A DNA stretch of 64,000 bases from Citrus sinensis. Its lineage: Eukaryota; Streptophyta; Magnoliopsida; Sapindales; Rutaceae. The translations under genes and the position numbers were made by a program. The notes under the pieces were generated by a model, which worked only from the letters and a program-made list of their open reading frames with translations, had not been told where the DNA came from and searched no databases. This document shows, piece by piece, positions 50,208-64,000 of this stretch (its first letter is position 1; each line of letters opens with the position of its first letter). Location of the stretch: the NCBI RefSeq assembly GCF_022201045.2, contig NC_068557.1:26389501-26453500 (forward strand), in the 5' to 3' direction.

Positions 50208-50257
<50 letters not shown>

Positions 50258-51993
50258 TGGGACTTGAGGAGGTGATGTGACATCACCATTTTTCATCTTT
50301 GTATATTCTCTATTATCTAATAAATAGAGAAATTTTCTTTTAGATTTGGTTTTTCATCTTCTCATAATTAATTTGATTGTTATTATACAATAACAATTAT
50401 GTAAAGATGTTAATGAGGCATAATATTTATAATGAACATTCAAGGGGGAGTGTTATGAATTTATTAAAATAAATGTAGATGTTCATAACATATATCTCTT
50501 AGTCTCCCCACTATCTCCCATTAGCAACATTTAGCTTCTCTATAACTCCCACTATCTCACAAGGAATTATGATTCATAATTTTTTATTAATTTCATGGAG
50601 TGATTATGTAACTATAAAAGGAGAGCTCATCTTTTTATTTTGTACACACACAATTGGAATGAATAAAATCACTCTATAATATATTCTCTCATTTTATTCT
50701 TTATCTTATATAAAGTTGAGACTTTAGGAGGTGATGTGGCATCACCATTTCTCATCTTTATATATTCTCTATTATCTAATAAATAGATAAATTTTCTTTT
50801 AGATTTGACTTTTCATCTTCTCATAATTAATTTGATTGTTATTATACAATAACAATTGTGTAAAGATTTTAATGAGGCATATTCTTTGTAATGAACATCT
50901 AAGGGGGAGTGTTATGAATTTATTAAAATAAATGTAGATGTTCATAATATATATCTCTTAGTCTCCACACTCTCTCCCATTAGTAACCTTTAACTTCCCT
51001 ATAACTCTCACTATCTCACAAGAAATTATGATCCATAATTTTTCATTAATTTCATGGAGTGATTATGTAACTATAAAAGGAGATCTCATCTTTTTGTTTT
51101 GTGCACACATAATTAGAATGAATAAAATCACTTTATAATATATTCTCTCATTTTATTCTTTATCTTCCATTGCTTCTTTATTTGTATTGCTGGCTAATAA
51201 TTTTTTTTTTTATTTTTTATAAGGCTGCCTCATCTTTTAAAAAAATTAATTCATATTTTTTATCAGTTTCGTTAAGTGTAAAGTAAAAAAAAAAAGATAA
51301 TACTAAATTCTTTTTTCAAAGCCGCGTAAAACGCGGTTCTATTTTCTAGTATATATATAAAGCTGGGGCTTGAGGAGGTGATGTGGCATCACCATTTCTC
51401 ATCTTTGTATATTCTCTATTATCTAATAAATAGAGAAATTTTCTTTTATATTTAGTTTTTCATCTTCTCATAATTAATTTGATTGTTATTACACAATAAC
51501 AATTATGTAAATATTTTAATGAGGCATATTCTTTGTAATGAACATCCAAGGGGGAGTGTTATGAATTTATTAAAATAAATGTAGATGTTCATAACATATA
51601 TCTCTCAGTCTCCCCACTATCTCCCATTAGCAACATTTAGCTTCCCTATAACTCCCATTATCTCACAAGGAATTATGATCCATAATTTTTCATTAATTTC
51701 ATGAAATGATTATGTAATTATAAAAGGAGAGCTCATCTTTTTGTTTTGTACACACACAATTGGAATGAATAAAATCACTCTATAATATATTCTCTCATTT
51801 TATTATTTATATTGTGTTACTTCTTTATTTGTATTGCTGGCTAATAGTTTTTTTTTGTTTTTTATAAGGCTGTCTCATCTTTAAAAAAAATCAATTTATA
51901 TTTTTTATCAGTTTCATCAAGTGTAAAGTAAAAAAAAACGATAATACTAAATTCTTTTTTCAAAGCCGCGTGAAGTGCGGTTCTATTTTCTAG
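50202..51993 (+). mobile_element. head-to-tail array of three Helitron-like units
   Basis: Three copies of one sequence follow each other in the same direction: about 50202-50708, 50709-51349 and 51350-51993. Each begins with a TATATATATAAAG stretch and GGGACTTGAGGAGGTGATGT or a variant of it. Units 2 and 3 end with a GC hairpin and CTAG: CCGCGT-AAA-ACGCGG at 51322-51336 with CTAG ending at 51349, and a slightly imperfect hairpin with CTAG ending at 51993. The first unit starts with TC after an A, and the last CTAG is followed by T. These are the Helitron rules (5' TC, 3' hairpin plus CTRR, insertion in AT). Unit 1 lacks the 3' hairpin. No Rep/helicase coding is present, so the elements are non-autonomous. 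Confidence 0.75.
50443..51815 (+). mobile_element. three copies of a copia-type LTR fragment inside the Helitron units
   Basis: Each Helitron-like unit carries a purine-rich tract (AAGGGGGAG) followed by a segment starting TGTTATGAA: about 50451-50708, 50910-51169 and 51557-51815. Each is close to 260 bp and has a TATA-like CTATAAAAGG and an AATAAAA signal. The purine tract next to a TG start resembles the 3' end of a copia-like retroelement next to its LTR. Only this terminal part is present; there is no coding region, so it is a fossil fragment that multiplied with its host element. Family assignment is tentative. Confidence 0.5.
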
Positions 51994-52348
51994 TTTTTAA
52001 AATATGACTCATGTTTTTAAAACATTCAATCAAGTGGTAATTAGTTAATTTTTGTCATTAACTCTAATAGCACAAAGGTAACATTAGAAAAATAAATTTA
52101 TTTATCTTCCACATTTTGTTTGTTATCTCTTTTTTTTTTTCTTTTTTTTCCCCCCCCCCCCCCCCCCCCTTCTTTCTTTGTCTTTCCCGTGCTCCATCTA
52201 CATGCTTCATCTTCTCTACATTCATAGCACGATAGTAATTGCGAGTTAAAACAAATGCTTACTAAGCCATAAAACCGGACTCAAACTGATTCTTGAGGAA
52301 TCAAGTCCAACATTTGCAAAATTAGAGCTAATGAAATAAAAACATTAG

Positions 52349-53948: not shown

Positions 53949-55891
53949 TTAGGCCCATTTAGCCAAGAGAGACATGCAACCTGAGCCTAAAAGAAGAGAA
54001 AAATTAGCTCCAAGCTGCAACTTGAAATTGGTTTGCAACTTAGGACTCATAAAATCCGTTGCAAGAAGATCCACAAGCGCCATATAGATCAAGATTCCAG
54101 CTGAAGCAGAGTTGAAAATGCCTTCAATAACAAGAGCTGTTGGGCTATTCTCTTTGTAAACTTTTGATATCCCAATCCCAATTCCAATCCCGACGGGAGT
54201 GGTCAGGGAAAAGAAAAGTATCATTGCCGCTACGGCTTTTGACTTGAACTTTGCCTGCTTCCACAAACAAATCAACACCATCAATGCTCTTTATATTTTG
54301 TGTTCTTGGCTTTTACATTTTAAAATTTGTGACTAACGAGTAGAGAGTACCTGAGAGATGCATCCACCAAGGCCCATGCCTTCAAAGAACTGGTGAAAAG
54401 TTAGTGCTGCTACGAGGGGCTTGATTGTCTTTACACTTCCGGAAGCACCCAGTGAAATCCCAATGATCACCGAATGCACAACTATCCCCAACTCTAATAC
54501 CTATAAAACATTCAATTTTGTTACGTGGAGGAGAATTGAAGGCTTCGCAATAGTGAACAAACTTTTCAACGAACAGATAGATATAGTGTAGTATCTTCAC
54601 CATATATGCTTTAAATATAATTCAAATGAAATATAATTCAAATGAAGATAAAGGCAAGATAGCCCCACACTGTAAATGCCTTTATCCTATTTTTTGCACT
54701 ACCCACATGATACAAACAGTAAACACAGTTCCATTTTCCAACTAATGTCATATCAGTACCAGAAAACATCGACCCATCTTTGTATCAGAAAGCATATCAG
54801 TAGTGTCACAGATAATGCTTTCTGCAAAACTGACTTCACAGATAATGCTTTCTGCAAAACTGACTTTCTGAATCTTATTCGCAACTCAAAACCTGATGCC
54901 AAGATTGATGCAAAGTCAGGAACTGTTATCATGGAACCCACCTAGCCCAACGTGTACGTGCAATTGATTGACCACACCAAAGGACTTTCAGGACGTACTT
55001 ACAAGTTAGTCAGTCAACTTCTGGAACATGCGCAAACACAAGCGGCGCGATAAATTATCAGAAGTACTTGTTACAAGTTTTGTCATCTCTGGAAATTGCT
55101 TCTTCGATTAGATAGTTTAGTTTTTTTTTTTGGAAAAGAATTAGATAGTTTAATTAAAATAAAATATTTGAGGATTTATTTGTTTTTTTTTTTCTCACCA
55201 TCAGAATGGTGTAATAGAAAACAAAGGGGAAAGTAAACTATCAACTCACATCAATTGATACCTGTGATACAATTCGGTGTCGGAAAAGATCAGAAGTCCC
55301 AGAACCAGAAGCATCCGACGATGCAAAAGCAGAGCCATGAGCATGGCCGTGCGTGGCATGTGTATGTACATGAACATGACCTTCATGCTCTGCATGCATC
55401 TCCTTGTCATCATCATTAACAGGCAAAGCCTTACTAAAATGCAAACGTTGATAAAAAGATGTGGCAAATGCATCAACCATCATAGTCAAAATCGCGGAAA
55501 CCATTGCCACAAACCCGGTGAAAGGGAAATCCTGCCATGGTTTTGGGCTTAAGCATGGACTTGTTAGACTCTCATACGCATCAGGCAGTATGTGGACAAA
55601 GCCTGTGGCAAGAATCACGCCGGCGGCGAAGGCTTTGATTATGAAGAAAATATTGTTCTCAGGATGAAAAGTTGAGATGTTTTTTCCAAAGCTTGGAATT
55701 GAAACACCGAAAGCACCCGCAATCAGGATTGATAGAATCGCAACGATTTTCAATTTCAAAGCTTTGTTTTTGTGGCCACTGCCGCCGATGGTTTCAGTGA
55801 GATCACACTTGCATTCTGCAGAAGCTGAGAGGGGGAGGAGAATCAAAAGAAAACAAAAGAAAATAAAGAGGAACATTGTTTTTCTGGCCAT
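53949..55891 (-). CDS. ZIP-family zinc/iron transporter (ZIP1/IRT-like)
   Basis: Three exons: 55891-55262, 54500-54351 and 54254-53949. The sum of 1086 nt gives 361 aa. ZIP proteins carry Zn, Fe or related divalent metals into the cytosol, usually at the plasma membrane. A signal-like hydrophobic start (about 1-25) is followed by the membrane spans. The variable cytosolic loop between TM3 and TM4 is His-rich (about 166-187, with [20 protein letters not shown]), a metal-binding hallmark. The TM4 signature has H219 ([14 protein letters not shown]) and TM5 has [11 protein letters not shown] with H246. The last exon gives the remaining spans and ends LLAKWA. Exon borders fall exactly at GT/AG with phase 0. 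Substrate is not predictable; sequence resembles zinc transporters ZIP1/ZIP3 more than iron-specific IRT1. Confidence 0.93.
54807..54866. repeat. 30-bp tandem duplication in ZIP intron 1
   Basis: 54807-54836 and 54837-54866 are identical 30-bp units beginning CACAGATAATGCTTTCTGCA. Confidence 0.9.
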
Positions 55892-56739
55892 GGCTGCAAT
55901 TACTGAGTTGCATTATTCAATATTGTTGAGTAGTGTTATCTTTTATGATTTTGAGTGTGTATTTATTGATGAGAATAATTGGTCAATGTGATCAAGAAAG
56001 TGTTAAATGGCGACATGAAAGTGTATGAAATATGCATTTGATTGGCTTAGGCTTGACAAGTGTGTAGTCTGTTGACTAAATGATGACATTATGAGTTAAC
56101 ATCTTCGTTCTCAAGGAAGTTGGATTTTAATTGGGTTTTGGGATCACTAACAGTCCCATCAAATTAGGGGACTTAGTGGAAAGTGACACTGTGGCTCTTC
56201 TGCGAACTCAAAACAAAGCTACCTTTTTCTCTCTTAAAAAATGGAAAATTTCATCAAGTTCTCTCGGACGTTTGATTGTACTATTATTCTATTACACAAT
56301 AGATTATTTTAAATATGTACAATTAATTATTACTATTGTTTATGATATCATCATTAGGGCACGATGTGAGATGCGAGATTGTGATGCTTGTTGTACAAAC
56401 ACCTCATGATGAGAACACAATTCTGATCGCCCAAGAACTACCCTTGGACCCCTAACGAGCCCAGATAAACCAAGCCAGCTCATTTTGACTGTATTATCCA
56501 TTTATTCTTCATTATTTAAGCTAAAAGGAAGGGGCTTGTAGTGGTAGCACGTGTAGGAGTGAATTTCTGAAAATTTGAATGGAAACAATTATAGAAAAGT
56601 TAATTTTATTTACCTCATCAATGAAAAAATAAATCAATGTTTTTAGTACAAATAATTCTTTCGCCTCTCTCGAACATATGACAACAATTCATTAAACAGT
56701 GTATATAACACATATGGAGTATCGAACACGTTCTCCCGT
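55892..56739. other. spacer between ZIP and BXL copy 1
   Basis: Upstream region of the ZIP gene and 3' region of the beta-xylosidase gene. The frame at 56131-56409 has no recognisable content. Confidence 0.5.
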
Positions 56740-59700
56740 TTAATAATTGAAGTTGAGATGAATGGGAAATGAAACCCCTCCATTGCCAACAAAAATAGTG
56801 TGCTCCCCAGCCGGCAGAAGGGTATTTGCAGCATAGTCCACCATATTTAAGCTCTTGCAAGCATTAAACACAAATTTAATCCTCTTATTCCTTCCGGCCC
56901 TCACAAAAACCCTTTGGAAACCGATGACTTGCTTGATATAAGTTGCAGCTATTTCTGCAGGGGGCTTGGAGTACACAATGACAACATCACTGCCATCTGT
57001 GCTGCCAACATTTTGAAAGTCAACTTTGAACTCAAAATAATCATCGCATCTCAGGTCATTGACCAGAACACCAGGACACCGGGTCTTGGAGGCATCACTC
57101 GTATAGTTTAGATTGCGACAATGTTGAAGTTTGTTCAAATTTACTTGAATTGTCTTCGTAAAGGAAAGTAGATTGTATTTGAATTGCGTATAGCTGAGGC
57201 CGTATCCGAATGGATACAGTGTTGGGCCGTTGTAGAATTTATATGTTCTTCCCGGATAACCTAAGCTATCAACAGGCCTCAATGGCATGGAAGTCAATGG
57301 TAGCATCTGGACGTAATCACCATTATACCAGGTTATGGGCAATCTTCCACCTGAAAGCAATATCATCATTTCTTTGTTATACCGAAAGCATACATACAAA
57401 TTAAAATCGAATTAATCCATATTCCCCTGTAAATATATACTTACCAGGATTGAATTTACCGAAGACAACATCAGCAATGGCACGGCCACCTTCCTCTCCA
57501 GGATAGCCAGCCCATAAAATAGCTTTGATGTTAGTGTTAGTCTCAGCAAAGGCGATATCGACGCCACCGGCAGACATGATTACGAGAATGACCGGACCTT
57601 TGGCAACTTCAGCAACCTGGTTGATAAGCTGAGTTTGGTATCCAGGAAGCCAGAGATCTTCCCTGTCCAAGCTCTCTGCCTCAACTGACAAATCCAAGCC
57701 TGCCAAAATTATTGTGGCATCCGCGGTCTTTGCGGCTTCTGACGCAGCAAATATGGAGTTATTGCTCTTGCAGGCAACGTCATCACATCCCGTCTTGTAG
57801 GTCACGTTTGCATACCCAGAGAAGCCAGCAATTGGAGACATGTATCGACACGGAATACCTACAACAAATTAACATGTCGTATATAATTAGTTTTTGAAAA
57901 CTAAAGAGTAACGAGCAAATGTATCTCCTTTATTTAGATTGCGGTTTGGTGGTATTCAACGAATGTACCTGCGTAATTTCCAATCATGGCTACAGTAGCA
58001 TTGGCGTGTGGCCCCACAACTGCGACTGTTTTGACCTTGGCAGAGTTCAAAGGCAGAGTGTTCTGATCATTCTTTAAAAGAACAATTCCTTCTCTGGCTG
58101 CTTCTGCGGCTAACTCTATATTTTCATCCGAGCAAATATCTTGTTTGCCAAGAGATACATACTGAGGGCTTCCATCGAAGAATCCTAGCCTCATTAGAAC
58201 GGTGTAAAGGTACTTGAGAGATTTATCTATATCTGTTTCCTTCACCTTCCCTTGTTGCACTGCATTTCCAGTGAAGTTTGTGTAGTATTGTCCACAGTCC
58301 AAATCCAATCCTAAGACAAAATAAAACCGTGCATAAACTCCATTCATTAATTATAAAACCAAAGCAGCAGCAATATGTTTCGGAAATCTAAAAACTAACC
58401 AGCTTTTAGTGTTTGGGCAACAGCATCTTCTTTCGAATCAGCTAGAAATTTGTGGTTATCAACCATAACTTGGATTGAATCACAGTCTGCCACTATGTAT
58501 CTGAAAAAAAAAAAAAAAGAGTTCAATAGTTATAAAATAATAGTTAGCAACTATAATTTATTTTCGGTTAAAAAGTTATTCATTATTGAATTATATTATA
58601 AAAGAATATTAATTGTACCCGTGAAGATCCCATTCTCCCCTAACAGTTTGATTTAAGAGCTTTGGGTCAGCACAGGAAGGTATGCCATTGACACGGTTAT
58701 AAGAGCACATAACACTGCTAGCGTCGCCTTCTTTGACACACATTTCAAATGGTCTAAGGAAAGTTTCCTCCATATCTTGCTCGGTCACCTTAATTTAAAA
58801 TCCAAGAAATTGTTAGAAATTTAATTTGAGTTGTATCTCACACTCCGTAGCTTAGTTAATTTTTCGTCATTAGATTTGGAGGTACTAACCCTTGCATCAA
58901 AATGATAACGATCAACTCCCTTCCAATTATCAACATCATAGGCAGCATAATGCTTGCAGCACGATGAAACTTTTAAAGGTCTAGAGTTCAAATCCGTAGC
59001 ATTTTCATGTCCCTCGACGTCTTGTAAGCCCCTAACATAGTTGACTGCATATCTTCCAACAACAAAAGGATCTTCGCCGGGCGTCTCAGTGATTCTTCCC
59101 CACCTTGGATCCCTCGCTACATTAATGTTTGGACTCCAATATGTTAATCCAGCTCGCCCTAGATTGTACATCGCTCGTGCTTCTGTTGAAACGGCCTACA
59201 ACAATAAAGAGTGAGTTTTTAGTTTAATGAATGCTTTCTTAACGAGGATTTTCGTACTTTATTAAGATCTGAAAAAGACTTTTACACACTTTAATGAAGT
59301 GCAAGAACCACTTATTAAAATGTTTCGATTAATTTAATTATCCACGACATGCTAACAAAAATAAATAAAATGGCGCGTGAGATCAAATACCTGGCCTATC
59401 TTTTTCCACAATGACTCATTGAATGAAGCTGTTGTGAGGATAACAGTGGGAAAACTTGTTGCTCCAGGAATTACATCATCGAAATGAGTGCCAGGACCGA
59501 CATTAGACACTCCATGCAGTGCTTCGGACCACCACTCGTACTGCGGAAGCCCCAACCTTGGGACGCCGTGAGCAAAATCTCCGAGTTGCTGCACTTTTTC
59601 GTCAAGGGTCATTCGGCTCACCAAGTCCTTCACTCTTATGGAGTAGGGTAAAGATGAGTCACAGAAGAGAAAGCTTGACATTTGCAGTCCAAGTTTAGAG

Positions 59701-59825
59701 AACCGACCGGGGTCACAAACGAAGACAGGGCTACTGCTGCCATTCGCATCAACAGCGTTTGTAGAGAAGACAAGTAAAGCAATGGAGAGACTGAAGCATA
59801 GGAGAGAACTAACTACTTTGGCCAT
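56740..59825 (-). CDS. beta-D-xylosidase / alpha-L-arabinofuranosidase, GH3 (BXL3/BXL4-like), copy 1
   Basis: Seven exons: 59825-59391, 59195-58890, 58788-58619, 58500-58400, 58310-57969, 57858-57445 and 57350-56740. The sum of 2379 nt gives 792 aa, usual for plant BXLs. The enzyme acts in the cell wall, releasing xylose (and often arabinose) from xylan and arabinan. The first ~25 residues form a signal peptide ([18 protein letters not shown]). Domain 1 contains [47 protein letters not shown] and [16 protein letters not shown]. The nucleophile should be D309 (YIVADCDS). The acid/base Glu lies in the second GH3 domain, probably in VEAES (about 511-513). A fibronectin-III-like C-terminus follows ([12 protein letters not shown] onward). 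Wording such as STEARAMYN with GLTYWSPN points to the BXL3/4 group. Head-to-head with copy 2. Confidence 0.94.
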
Positions 59826-61867
59826 CGTTCTTATTCTTAGTCTTTGAGAAAGAAGCTTGTAGCTATGAAGCAGTTTATGAAGCTGCCTATCTTTTTATAA
59901 GCAATTAATTATGCGCTTTTGAGTTCATCTCAAAGGTTATTATCTTTGACTAGCTAGATTGCTGTTATAAAATTACAGTTTCACGGTTTGTAAAGATAAT
60001 GTGAACCACTAAATCTCTATTTAGTTTATGACAACAAACTTATTGCTAAATTTTTTTCTAATGCTTGATTAATCATGGGTGACAACTAAAGCTTGCTGTG
60101 CTCGATATGGATGAATGCAAGGAGGTTTTAAGAACAATATAAACGATTTGTTGTTTCAAGTTTCAACCCATTTGATTGTTTTTTATCCAATTCTCACAAA
60201 CTGTCGCTAATTAATGGCGATTGATTTAGCCAATTAGCCAAACAATAATAAATTTATAGTTATGTTATCTCGTTCAAATTTATTCTAGACCGGTTTATTA
60301 TTTTTAGTTGGACATTGTGAGTACATTTATGTAAAATTCGTTAATGATTACTGAAGATATTTGGGAAAGATGGGGATCCTTTGACTGGTTAAAATTTATT
60401 GGAACCTAAATATTCATTTATTCATTGATTCCATACAATCCATTTAGAAAAAAGATTTTACAAAACGATATTATCTTAATTAGGTTACAGAATTTGATAA
60501 AACATATGAAATATTCAATATCCAAGTAGTTATGAAAAATTTTGTCACCTATTTTTTTATATATGAAAGTAAAATTGTTGAAAGAAAATACCGTTTTAAG
60601 TTGTTAATTCATCTATTGTACTGATGGTTCATTATTAATTGTGTCACCATCTAAATAAAAATATAAGATATTTACCTCATTTAGAAGAATTAAAAACATT
60701 CCAAAATACTGAATGCTAGAATCGAAATCTCTTTAGAGCTGCAACTAAAATTTATGTTTATTGTAGTAAGGCAAAATTCCTTGTGCCTGCTCTAGTTTAT
60801 GTTGAATTGTTGAAAACGACACACACCACCAACTAATTAATTATCTCAATACAACCTATTAGGATTTGCTTATGTAAGCTTATTATCAACTTTGAACTTG
60901 TAATAGAGCTACTAATTGGAATTTGGAATCAAACCTCGTCGATTCATGAAATAGTTTTAATCTTTCGAATTAACTAATTAATATTAACTTCTTCTTTTTT
61001 TATAATTAATTTATGAAATGGAGTCTTAGACTTATCTTTTTCATAAGAAAAAAGGGAAAGAAACTAGATATATTAATTTGTTCAAAGGATTACAACCAAA
61101 TTGATCGGCTGAAACGGAATCCACATTAATCCACGACCTAATTTTCCTGATTTTCATATTCAAATTAACTAACTAAAACAAAATTGTTTGGCTAAGGGTG
61201 CGTTTGGGATTGAGGTTGGGCAGCTGTAGCTTAAAAGCTAAAGCACTAAAGTGTTTGGTAAACACTAGCTGCTGTAGCTTTTAAGCTATGTTGATATGAT
61301 TTTTCACTTGTATAATACAAAATTTATTATATCTTTAATAATTTTATCAAAATTATTATTTAAAATTTATATTTACTATATATTATTAACTTTTGTTTCA
61401 TAATTACAGCTTTTTTTTCACAGCAGCTGTAGCTTAAAAGCTACAGCACCTCAATCCCAAATGCACCCTAAATCAATCGGCATTAATTTGCGACATTTTA
61501 GGAGATTTGGATAAAAGAAACCATCAAATGGGTTGAAACTTGAAACGACAAATCGTTTATTGTTCGTAAACTTTCCATGCATTCATCCGCACTTGAGCAC
61601 AGCGAAGTAGAGTTGTCATGCGTTACTGTAATCAAGTATTCGACAAAATTTAACAAATATGTTTGCTGTTATAAACTAAAAGGAAAGTGAGTGGTTCACA
61701 TTCTCTTCTACAATAGTAACTTCATAACAGTAATCTAGCTAGTCAGAGATAATAGCCAATCACATCAGCCAAAGGGTGCAAAAATCACTTATAAAAGCAC
61801 ACAGCTGCCTCATAATTTTTCCATAGCTAAAATCTATAGCTTCCTTCTCAAAGAATAAGTAGAGGAT
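59826..61867. promoter_or_regulatory. divergent promoter region between the two BXL copies
   Basis: About 2 kb between start codons. TATA boxes are TATAAAA at 59899-59893 (-) and at 61790-61796 (+), 68 and 75 bp from the ATGs. A CCAAT motif lies at 61756-61760 on the plus side. The flanks are mirror-related: TGGGTTGAAACTTGAAAC near 60150 (complement) and near 61530. The centre (about 60250-61160) is unique AT-rich DNA. A MITE (61196-61468) sits only in the right arm. Confidence 0.6.
61196..61468. mobile_element. Tourist/PIF-Harbinger-like MITE, 273 bp, TAA target duplication
   Basis: The ends are GGGTGCGTTTGGGATTGAGG and the reverse complement of CCTCAATCCCAAATGCACCC, differing at one base. 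Inner inverted repeats CAGCTGTAGCTTAAAAGCTA occur near both ends. TAA flanks it on both sides (61193-61195, 61469-61471). The other arm of the inverted duplication carries the uninterrupted sequence TTGGCTAAATCAATC (60223-60233 region, complement), that is the empty site. Confidence 0.85.
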
Positions 61868-64000
61868 ATGATGGCCAAAGTTGTTAGTTTCCCCCTATGC
61901 TTCAGTCTCTCCATTGCTTTACTTGTCTTCTCTACAAACGCTGTTAGTGCAAATGACAGCAGTAGCCCTGTCTTCGTTTGTGACCCTGCTCGATTCACTA
62001 AACTTGGATTGCAAATGTCAAGCTTTCTCTTCTGTGATTCATCTTTGCCCTATTCCGTAAGAGTGAAGGACTTGGTGAGCCGAATGACCCTTGACGAAAA
62101 AGTGCAGCAACTCGGAGATTTTGCTCACGGCGTCCCAAGGTTGGGGCTTCCGCAGTACGAGTGGTGGTCCGAAGCACTGCATGGAGTGTCTAATGTCGGT
62201 CCTGGCACTCATTTCGATGATGTAATTCCTGGAGCAACAAGTTTTCCCACTGTTATCCTCACAACAGCTTCATTCAATGAGTCATTGTGGAAAAAGATAG
62301 GCCAGGTATTTGATCTCACGCGCCATTTTATTTATTTTTGTTAGCATGTCGTGGATAATTAAATTAATCGAAACATTTTAATAAGTGGTTCTTGCACTTC
62401 ATTAAAGTGTGTAAAAGTCTTTTTCAGATCTTAATAAAGTACGAAAATCCTCGTTAAGAAAGCATTCATTAAACTAAAAACTCACTCTTTATTGTTGTAG
62501 GCCGTTTCAACAGAAGCACGAGCGATGTACAATCTAGGGCGAGCTGGATTAACATATTGGAGTCCAAACATTAATGTAGCGAGGGATCCAAGGTGGGGAA
62601 GAATCACTGAGACGCCCGGCGAAGATCCTTTTGTTGTTGGAAGATATGCAGTCAACTATGTTAGGGGCTTACAAGACGTCGAGGGACATGAAAATGCTAC
62701 GGATTTGAACTCTAGACCTTTAAAAGTTTCATCGTGCTGCAAGCATTATGCTGCCTATGATGTTGATAATTGGAAGGGAGTTGATCGTTATCATTTTGAT
62801 GCAAGGGTTAGTACCTCCAAATCTAATGACGAAAAATTAACTAAGCTACGGAGTGTGAGATACAACTCAAATTAAATTTCTAACAATTTCTTGGATTTTA
62901 AATTAAGGTGACCGAGCAAGATATGGAGGAAACTTTCCTTAGACCATTTGAAATGTGTGTCAAAGAAGGCGACGCTAGCAGTGTTATGTGCTCTTATAAC
63001 CGTGTCAATGGCATACCTTCCTGTGCTGACCCAAAGCTCTTAAATCAAACTGTTAGGGGAGAATGGGATCTTCACGGGTACAATTAATATTCTTTTATAA
63101 TATAATTCAATAATGAATAACTTTTTAACCGAAAATAAATTATAGTTGCTAACTATTATTTTATAACTATTGAACTCTTTTTTTTTTTTTTTCAGATACA
63201 TAGTGGCAGACTGTGATTCAATCCAAGTTATGGTTGATAACCACAAATTTCTAGCTGATTCGAAAGAAGATGCTGTTGCCCAAACACTAAAAGCTGGTTA
63301 GTTTTTAGATTTCCGAAACATATTGCTGCTGCTTTGGTTTTATAATTAATGAATGGAGTTTATGCACGGTTTTATTTTGTCTTAGGATTGGATTTGGACT
63401 GTGGACAATACTACACAAACTTCACTGGAAATGCAGTGCAACAAGGGAAGGTGAAGGAAACAGATATAGATAAATCTCTCAAGTACCTTTACACCGTTCT
63501 AATGAGGCTAGGATTCTTCGATGGAAGCCCTCAGTATGTATCTCTTGGCAAACAAGATATTTGCTCGGATGAAAATATAGAGTTAGCCGCAGAAGCAGCC
63601 AGAGAAGGAATTGTTCTTTTAAAGAATGATCAGAACACTCTGCCTTTGAACTCTGCCAAGGTCAAAACAGTCGCAGTTGTGGGGCCACACGCCAATGCTA
63701 CTGTAGCCATGATTGGAAATTACGCAGGTACATTCGTTGAATACCACCAAACCGCAATCTAAATAAAGGAGATACATTTGCTCGTTACTCTTTAGTTTTC
63801 AAAAACTAATTATATACGACATGTTAATTTGTTGTAGGTATTCCGTGTCGATACATGTCTCCAATTGCTGGCTTCTCTGGGTATGCAAACGTGACCTACA
63901 AGACGGGATGTGATGACGTTGCCTGCAAGAGCAATAACTCCATATTTGCTGCGTCAGAAGCCGCAAAGACCGCGGATGCCACAATAATTTTGGCAGGCTT
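61868..64000 (+). CDS. beta-D-xylosidase GH3 (BXL3/BXL4-like), copy 2, cut by window edge
   Basis: Same gene as at 56740-59825, facing the other way. Exons seen: 61868 (or 61871)-62305, 62501-62806, 62908-63077, 63196-63296, 63386-63727 and 63838->64000. Two in-frame ATGs open it (MMAKVV); copy 1 has only one. The signal peptide and mature N-terminus differ at several residues (VSFPLC against [15 protein letters not shown] against [18 protein letters not shown] against [15 protein letters not shown] against SIRVKD). From [10 protein letters not shown] onward the visible protein is identical to copy 1, including the nucleophile motif YIVADCDS. The acid/base region and C-terminus lie beyond the window. 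Its own TATA and leader make separate expression possible. Confidence 0.93.

Follow-up and report, generated by a model that had tools for sequence, protein, structure and literature searches.

How can two neighbouring genes be identical over most of their length, introns included, and yet differ at both ends as long-separated duplicates do? The question is raised by a pair of beta-xylosidase genes of glycoside hydrolase family 3 (GH3) that lie head-to-head near the right edge of a 64,000-nucleotide stretch of Citrus sinensis DNA (hereafter the window, C2:26389501-26453500, in a genome of 299.7 Mb that comprises nine large and two small contigs). We call the leftward gene and its arm of the inverted repeat L, and the rightward ones R. 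The R arm crosses the window edge at 64000; the adjoining sequence was included in the analysis, and positions above 64000 are numbered onward from the window. We think it likely, with a probability of about 0.8, that an old head-to-head inverted duplication was followed by a very recent interlocus gene conversion of the gene body.

Both genes are intact and both reading frames are open. Judged by their predicted proteins, L and R are GH3 beta-xylosidases: the L protein matches the Pfam families Glyco_hydro_3, Glyco_hydro_3_C and Fn3-like with 116.3, 172.7 and 39.4 bits (cut-offs 27, 31 and 25), and its top six matches among solved structures are all named xylosidases, with E values from 1.4e-148 to 1.2e-132 and 7vc7 as the best (60 matches shown of 79 distinct sequences). 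All six R introns have GT and AG borders, mirrored by L. The R gene carries a second ATG immediately upstream of the one that the arms have in common (ATGATG, at 61868), which the first-pass annotation had missed and which gives the R protein one extra N-terminal Met. The domain make-up is common to plant GH3 beta-D-xylosidases (BXL; citrus BXL genes are named in PMC5296326), and beside those enzymes no feature seen in the one encoded by L and R is outstanding; what sets the two genes apart is how they came to be alike.

The inverted repeat pairs R 61468-64965 with L 60229-56731, of which the R part within the window is 61468-64000 only. Starting at the ATG that both genes have (R 61871, L 59825), the arms are collinear without indels, the R and L positions summing to 121696 throughout, and the collinearity that had been reported from the start codon to the window edge in fact continues to the stop codon. 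Divergence along the arms shows a step on each side of the gene body, at 24.0% in the 5′ flank, 9.1% in the start of exon 1, 0% in the gene body, 1.3% in the tail of exon 7 and 31.3% in the 3′ flank. The earlier count of 17 differences in the first 187 bp of exon 1 is exact (9.09%), and the run of 1943 bp in which that annotation found no difference, introns and a homopolymer (15 bases in L and R alike) included, holds up as the visible portion of a tract that actually measures 2746 bp. For the promoters it had put the difference at roughly 20% with indels; the indels are there, as seven gap events, and the figure is slightly higher, at 92 of 383 sites (24.0%). Continuing the alignment to the right of 64000, a check that had been proposed at the same time, brings out the end of the tract at 64803, an intermediate tail of the coding sequence and a 3′ flank that is diverged but homologous. 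Thus both flanks are homologous between the arms, both carry indels, and both are older than the tract.

Within the tract, the six introns (0 of 707 bp) and the synonymous sites (0 of 457.7) are without a difference; had they diverged at the raw synonymous rate found in the start of exon 1 (9 in 43.8), about 239 differences would be expected. Chance does not produce such a profile: when the 19 differences in 3086 bp were placed at random 100,000 times, the longest difference-free gap was 1805 bp, versus the 2746 bp observed, for which the analytic P is about 1e-17. At the protein level L and R differ at residues 7, 8, 26, 29, 40, 43, 63 and 759 (L numbering), and a further nine codons differ silently, codon 743 in the exon 7 tail among them. 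The suggestion that the two enzymes share one mature sequence is therefore nearly right; it fails at codon 759, which encodes Ile in R and Met in L, and at five amino acid differences in codons 26-63, presumed to lie past the predicted signal peptide.

Reading these segments as history requires knowing what the diverged ends are. Four related xylosidase genes are clustered at C2:31547634-31565001, about 5.1 Mb off on the same chromosome; three of them (K1, K3 and K4) were aligned with L and R, while K2 (about C2:31.5517-31.5558 Mb), whose tblastn matches are fragmentary, was left out. Over the opening 187 bp of the coding sequence, 170 of 187 sites agree between L and R, whereas agreement with K1 is 108-111 of 187, with K3 100-105 of 175 and with K4 75-81 of 151. 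By these counts L and R pair as sisters at the 5′ end among the five aligned genes (L, R, K1, K3 and K4), and their divergence there dates their own duplication. A chimeric 5′ end drawn from the cluster at C2:31.55 Mb was considered and rejected because the two ends are sisters. The tract itself has diverged from K1, with exons 69-87% identical, intron 1 identical at 67 of 141 sites (48%) and intron 3 at 62 of 113 (55%), so it is not a generally frozen sequence. Intron comparisons with the paralogs cover introns 1 and 3 of the six, and for K3 intron 1 they amount to three aligned sites only.

Outside the tract the distances between the arms are 0.24 for synonymous sites in the start of exon 1, 0.29 for the 5′ flank and 0.40 for the 3′ flank. 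Inside it, the upper limit on divergence is about 3 in 1165 neutral sites, or 0.0026, about 1% of the synonymous divergence (dS) outside. PMC7023750 quotes a rate of 2.5e-9 per year for Populus tremula, which would place the duplication about 48 million years ago and the last conversion within about the past 0.5 million years; both dates are rough, since the dS is based on 43.8 sites, and a faster rate would shorten both. Homologous diverged flanks on both sides speak against a fresh copy of the body having landed in unrelated sequence, and identity inside combined with homologous old flanks on both sides is the pattern that interlocus conversion leaves. The proposal made on first inspection, that recent conversion covered the gene body but not the 5′ end, is thereby supported, and the diverged homologous 3′ flank (35 of 112 sites, five gap events) strengthens it.

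In the sequence of events that we propose, a GH3 beta-xylosidase gene would have been duplicated long ago in inverted, head-to-head orientation, after which the arms diverged. Conversion between the adjacent arms would then have overwritten one gene body with the other, between codons 63 and 742 and over no less than 2746 bp; an older conversion extending to about the stop codon probably preceded it. Given how breaks are generally repaired, the most likely route would be a double-strand break in one arm that was mended by synthesis-dependent strand annealing, the other arm serving as template, in which case the tract ends would sit where identity drops off. The outcome would be nearly one enzyme from two genes whose promoter regions and leader peptides have diverged. 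Because the tract is identical, the donor is unreadable from it, and the polarised differences on either side say nothing about the donor either. The 19 coding-sequence differences could be polarised only partly with K1, K3 and K4; the sites at which L seems to carry the derived state outnumber those at which R does, and they include 64804 and 64854, where K3 and K4 agree with R but K1 differs from both arms.

Several points weigh against this interpretation. A first conversion across introns already about 20% diverged, with indels, would be hard, and conversion that began early and recurred would be more credible. The start of exon 1 also evolves faster than the body in general (identity between R and K1 is 111 of 187 there, 191 of 248 in the rest of exon 1 and 104 of 153 in the exon 7 tail), so the 5′ step is partly a step in rate; a rate step at exon 1 cannot, however, account for the absence of differences in the introns. 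A milder step of the same kind is seen between K3 and K4, which agree at 93 of 139 sites in the start of exon 1 but at 221 of 248 in its remainder, possibly just because the leader evolves fast. The number of events is a further difficulty. The run of identity is not open-ended: it stops at about R 64803 and is followed by the tail with 2 differences in 153 bp, so that conversion was perhaps not one single event. The tail has fewer differences than the start of exon 1 (Fisher P 0.0016) and more than the tract (P 0.0028, a value that is too good because the cut at 64804 was set from the data, which leaves the case for a second event weak). Scaled by the K1 rates, the tail should hold about 11 differences, yet two are seen; constraint can explain part of this low divergence, not all of it. 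The best fit, weak as the case is, is an older conversion to about the stop codon and then the recent one, with its end at about 64803; two chance mutations following a single event may also explain the tail. Exon 7 was at one stage taken to be the least conserved part relative to the paralogs; we withdraw this, as by DNA the exon 1 start is lower (R-K1 111 of 187 against 104 of 153 in the exon 7 tail). By protein exon 7 is the lowest, at 58-59%, in a comparison whose K1 and K4 matches to exon 1 begin only at residue 35-36.

The pair is also known here from one assembly alone, and an artefact, by gap filling in one arm or by the double placement of a collapsed contig, either of which would build the body of one arm from the reads of the other, would yield just such an identical tract bounded by true arm-specific ends. 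The sizes of C1, C4, C10 and C11 end in 500, which suggests Hi-C scaffolding and hence post-assembly steps. No N occurs across 106.5 kb from the window start, a weak point since a filled gap leaves none. Collapse, however, requires arms that were nearly identical beforehand, and cannot alone take a body diverged by 10-20% to 0%; nor is a tail segment at 1.3% expected from a simple fill. These arguments fall short of proof; we regard an assembly error as unlikely, though it is the main rival. An artefact of fold-back reads was rejected, as it predicts identity from the centre outward and the centre-facing ends are in fact diverged.

Body identity alone cannot separate conversion from recent copying, in which the body or the whole gene was newly duplicated and joined to the 5′ end of an unrelated or older paralog to give a chimera, and a duplication limited to the open reading frame may mimic conversion, as PMC3966223 cautions. 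That caution is answered here by flanks that are homologous between the arms on both sides at 24-31% divergence. Moreover, at the 5′ end L and R are closer to each other than to K1, K3 or K4, and the next match in the genome to L exon 1 after L and R themselves is at most 73% identical (15 matches). Replacing the body of one old arm by that of the other would be conversion under another name, and we consider fresh copying very improbable. Strong purifying selection on the body with relaxed or positive selection on the ends, and no conversion at all, would draw on the fast evolution of the exon 1 start, but it is scarcely credible: neither the introns nor the synonymous sites of the tract differ between the arms, while introns 1 and 3 are barely half identical to those of K1. 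Selection on the protein is ruled out as the cause by the identical introns.

The arrangement of old ends around a new centre has precedents. In Caenorhabditis elegans, the hsp16-1/hsp16-48 modules form an inverted repeat that is 100% identical within and diverged outside, for which conversion was proposed in preference to recent duplication (PMC3966223). Unlike L and R, each of those modules is itself a head-to-head gene pair, and their flanks are described as completely diverged, which left a duplication limited to the open reading frames open; in the citrus pair both flanks are still recognisably homologous, so the duplication can be dated independently. Among plants, palindromes on the willow W chromosome are likewise inverted repeats; in one species their arms do not differ over a 3-kb region, which PMC7023750 ascribes to conversion. 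They differ in lying on a sex chromosome, in involving 20-kb stretches among four arms and in having the support of read depth and a second species, whereas L and R are one gene pair in one assembly. Among the titles listed by the literature searches there was no case of conversion in a plant xylosidase pair, which is weak evidence of absence, and a search for gene conversion with xylosidase and paralog returned, again by title, bacterial work only. If the assembly is right, the pair is a clean example of a known pattern, comparable to hsp16, and not a new kind.

The value of the locus lies in the diverged, alignable sequence on either side of a long perfect tract, which yields the ages of both duplication and conversion from one place; dating the pair by its coding sequence would make an old duplication seem brand new. 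If regulation differs between L and R, the pair could also serve to test whether a single enzyme is preserved by conversion as expression diverges. It is tempting to go further and suppose that the enzyme bodies are kept the same by conversion and the promoters and leader peptides are kept different by selection, giving one enzyme under two control regimes. We find this quite doubtful; were it true, selection would have removed conversions crossing into the 5′ end, and the sharp step there would be a selected boundary. The coordinates of the pair, its segments and the adjoining transposable element are collected in the table.

Table. Features of the L and R arms, with positions numbered from the start of the window and continued beyond 64000
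Feature	Position	Strand	Details
L gene, GH3 beta-xylosidase (predicted)	56740..59825	-	7 exons, 792 amino acids, intact; gene model, translation, Pfam
L gene exons	59391-59825, 58890-59195, 58619-58788, 58400-58500, 57969-58310, 57445-57858, 56740-57350	-	
R gene, same GH3 family (predicted)	61868..64000 in window; stop codon ends 64956 (C2:26454456)	+	793 amino acids, intact; gene model
R gene exons	61868-62305, 62501-62806, 62908-63077, 63196-63296, 63386-63727, 63838-64251, 64346-64956	+	
R 5′ flank, promoter side	61474..61867	+	92/383 sites differ from L (24.0%), 7 gap events; transposable element excluded
L 5′ flank, promoter side	59826..60232	-	alignment extends ~30 bp beyond the R-side transposable element, then lost
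Diverged R exon 1 start	61871..62057	+	17/187 bp differ (9.09%); codons 1-63: dS 0.24, nonsynonymous divergence (dN) 0.057
Diverged L exon 1 start	59639..59825	-	mirror of R 61871-62057
Identical tract, R	62058..64803 (62058..64000 in window)	+	0/2746 bp differ; 1943 bp inside window
Identical tract, L	56893..59638	-	mirror of R 62058-64803
L exon 7 tail, intermediate divergence	56740..56892	-	2/153 bp differ from R 64804-64956
L 3′ flank	56614..56739	-	homologous to R 64957-65075; 35/112 sites differ (31.3%), 5 gap events
Miniature inverted-repeat transposable element (MITE) in R promoter, absent from L	61196..61468	.	273 bp; 20-bp terminal inverted repeats (19/20 match), TAA on both sides, by eye

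The MITE in the R promoter sits close to the point where arm homology ends. Its TAA target suggests what we take to be a Tourist/PIF-Harbinger type. Among 2212 first-look candidates for its family, the best 40, with the window copy among them, show 96-100% identity and are spread over all nine chromosomes, which points to recent movement of at least part of the family. A long terminal repeat (LTR) element occupies C2:26454640-26458161 (65140-68661, outside the window), starting 183 bp past the stop codon of R; its LTRs share about 94% identity, and TTTGT stands on both sides. Its interior holds no stop-to-stop frame longer than 143 amino acids and the element is apparently non-autonomous; by the divergence of its LTRs it would be younger than the gene duplication and older than the last conversion.

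ZIP zinc transporter genes lie on either side of the pair, at 53949-55912 and C2:26462656-26465018, both on the minus strand and thus in the same orientation. They are 69-77% identical in three matching stretches, and on account of this likeness an older duplication may have included the neighbours of the xylosidase gene. Farther left in the window, at 50244-51994, are tandem direct repeats of about 640 and 460 bp that are 92-95% identical.

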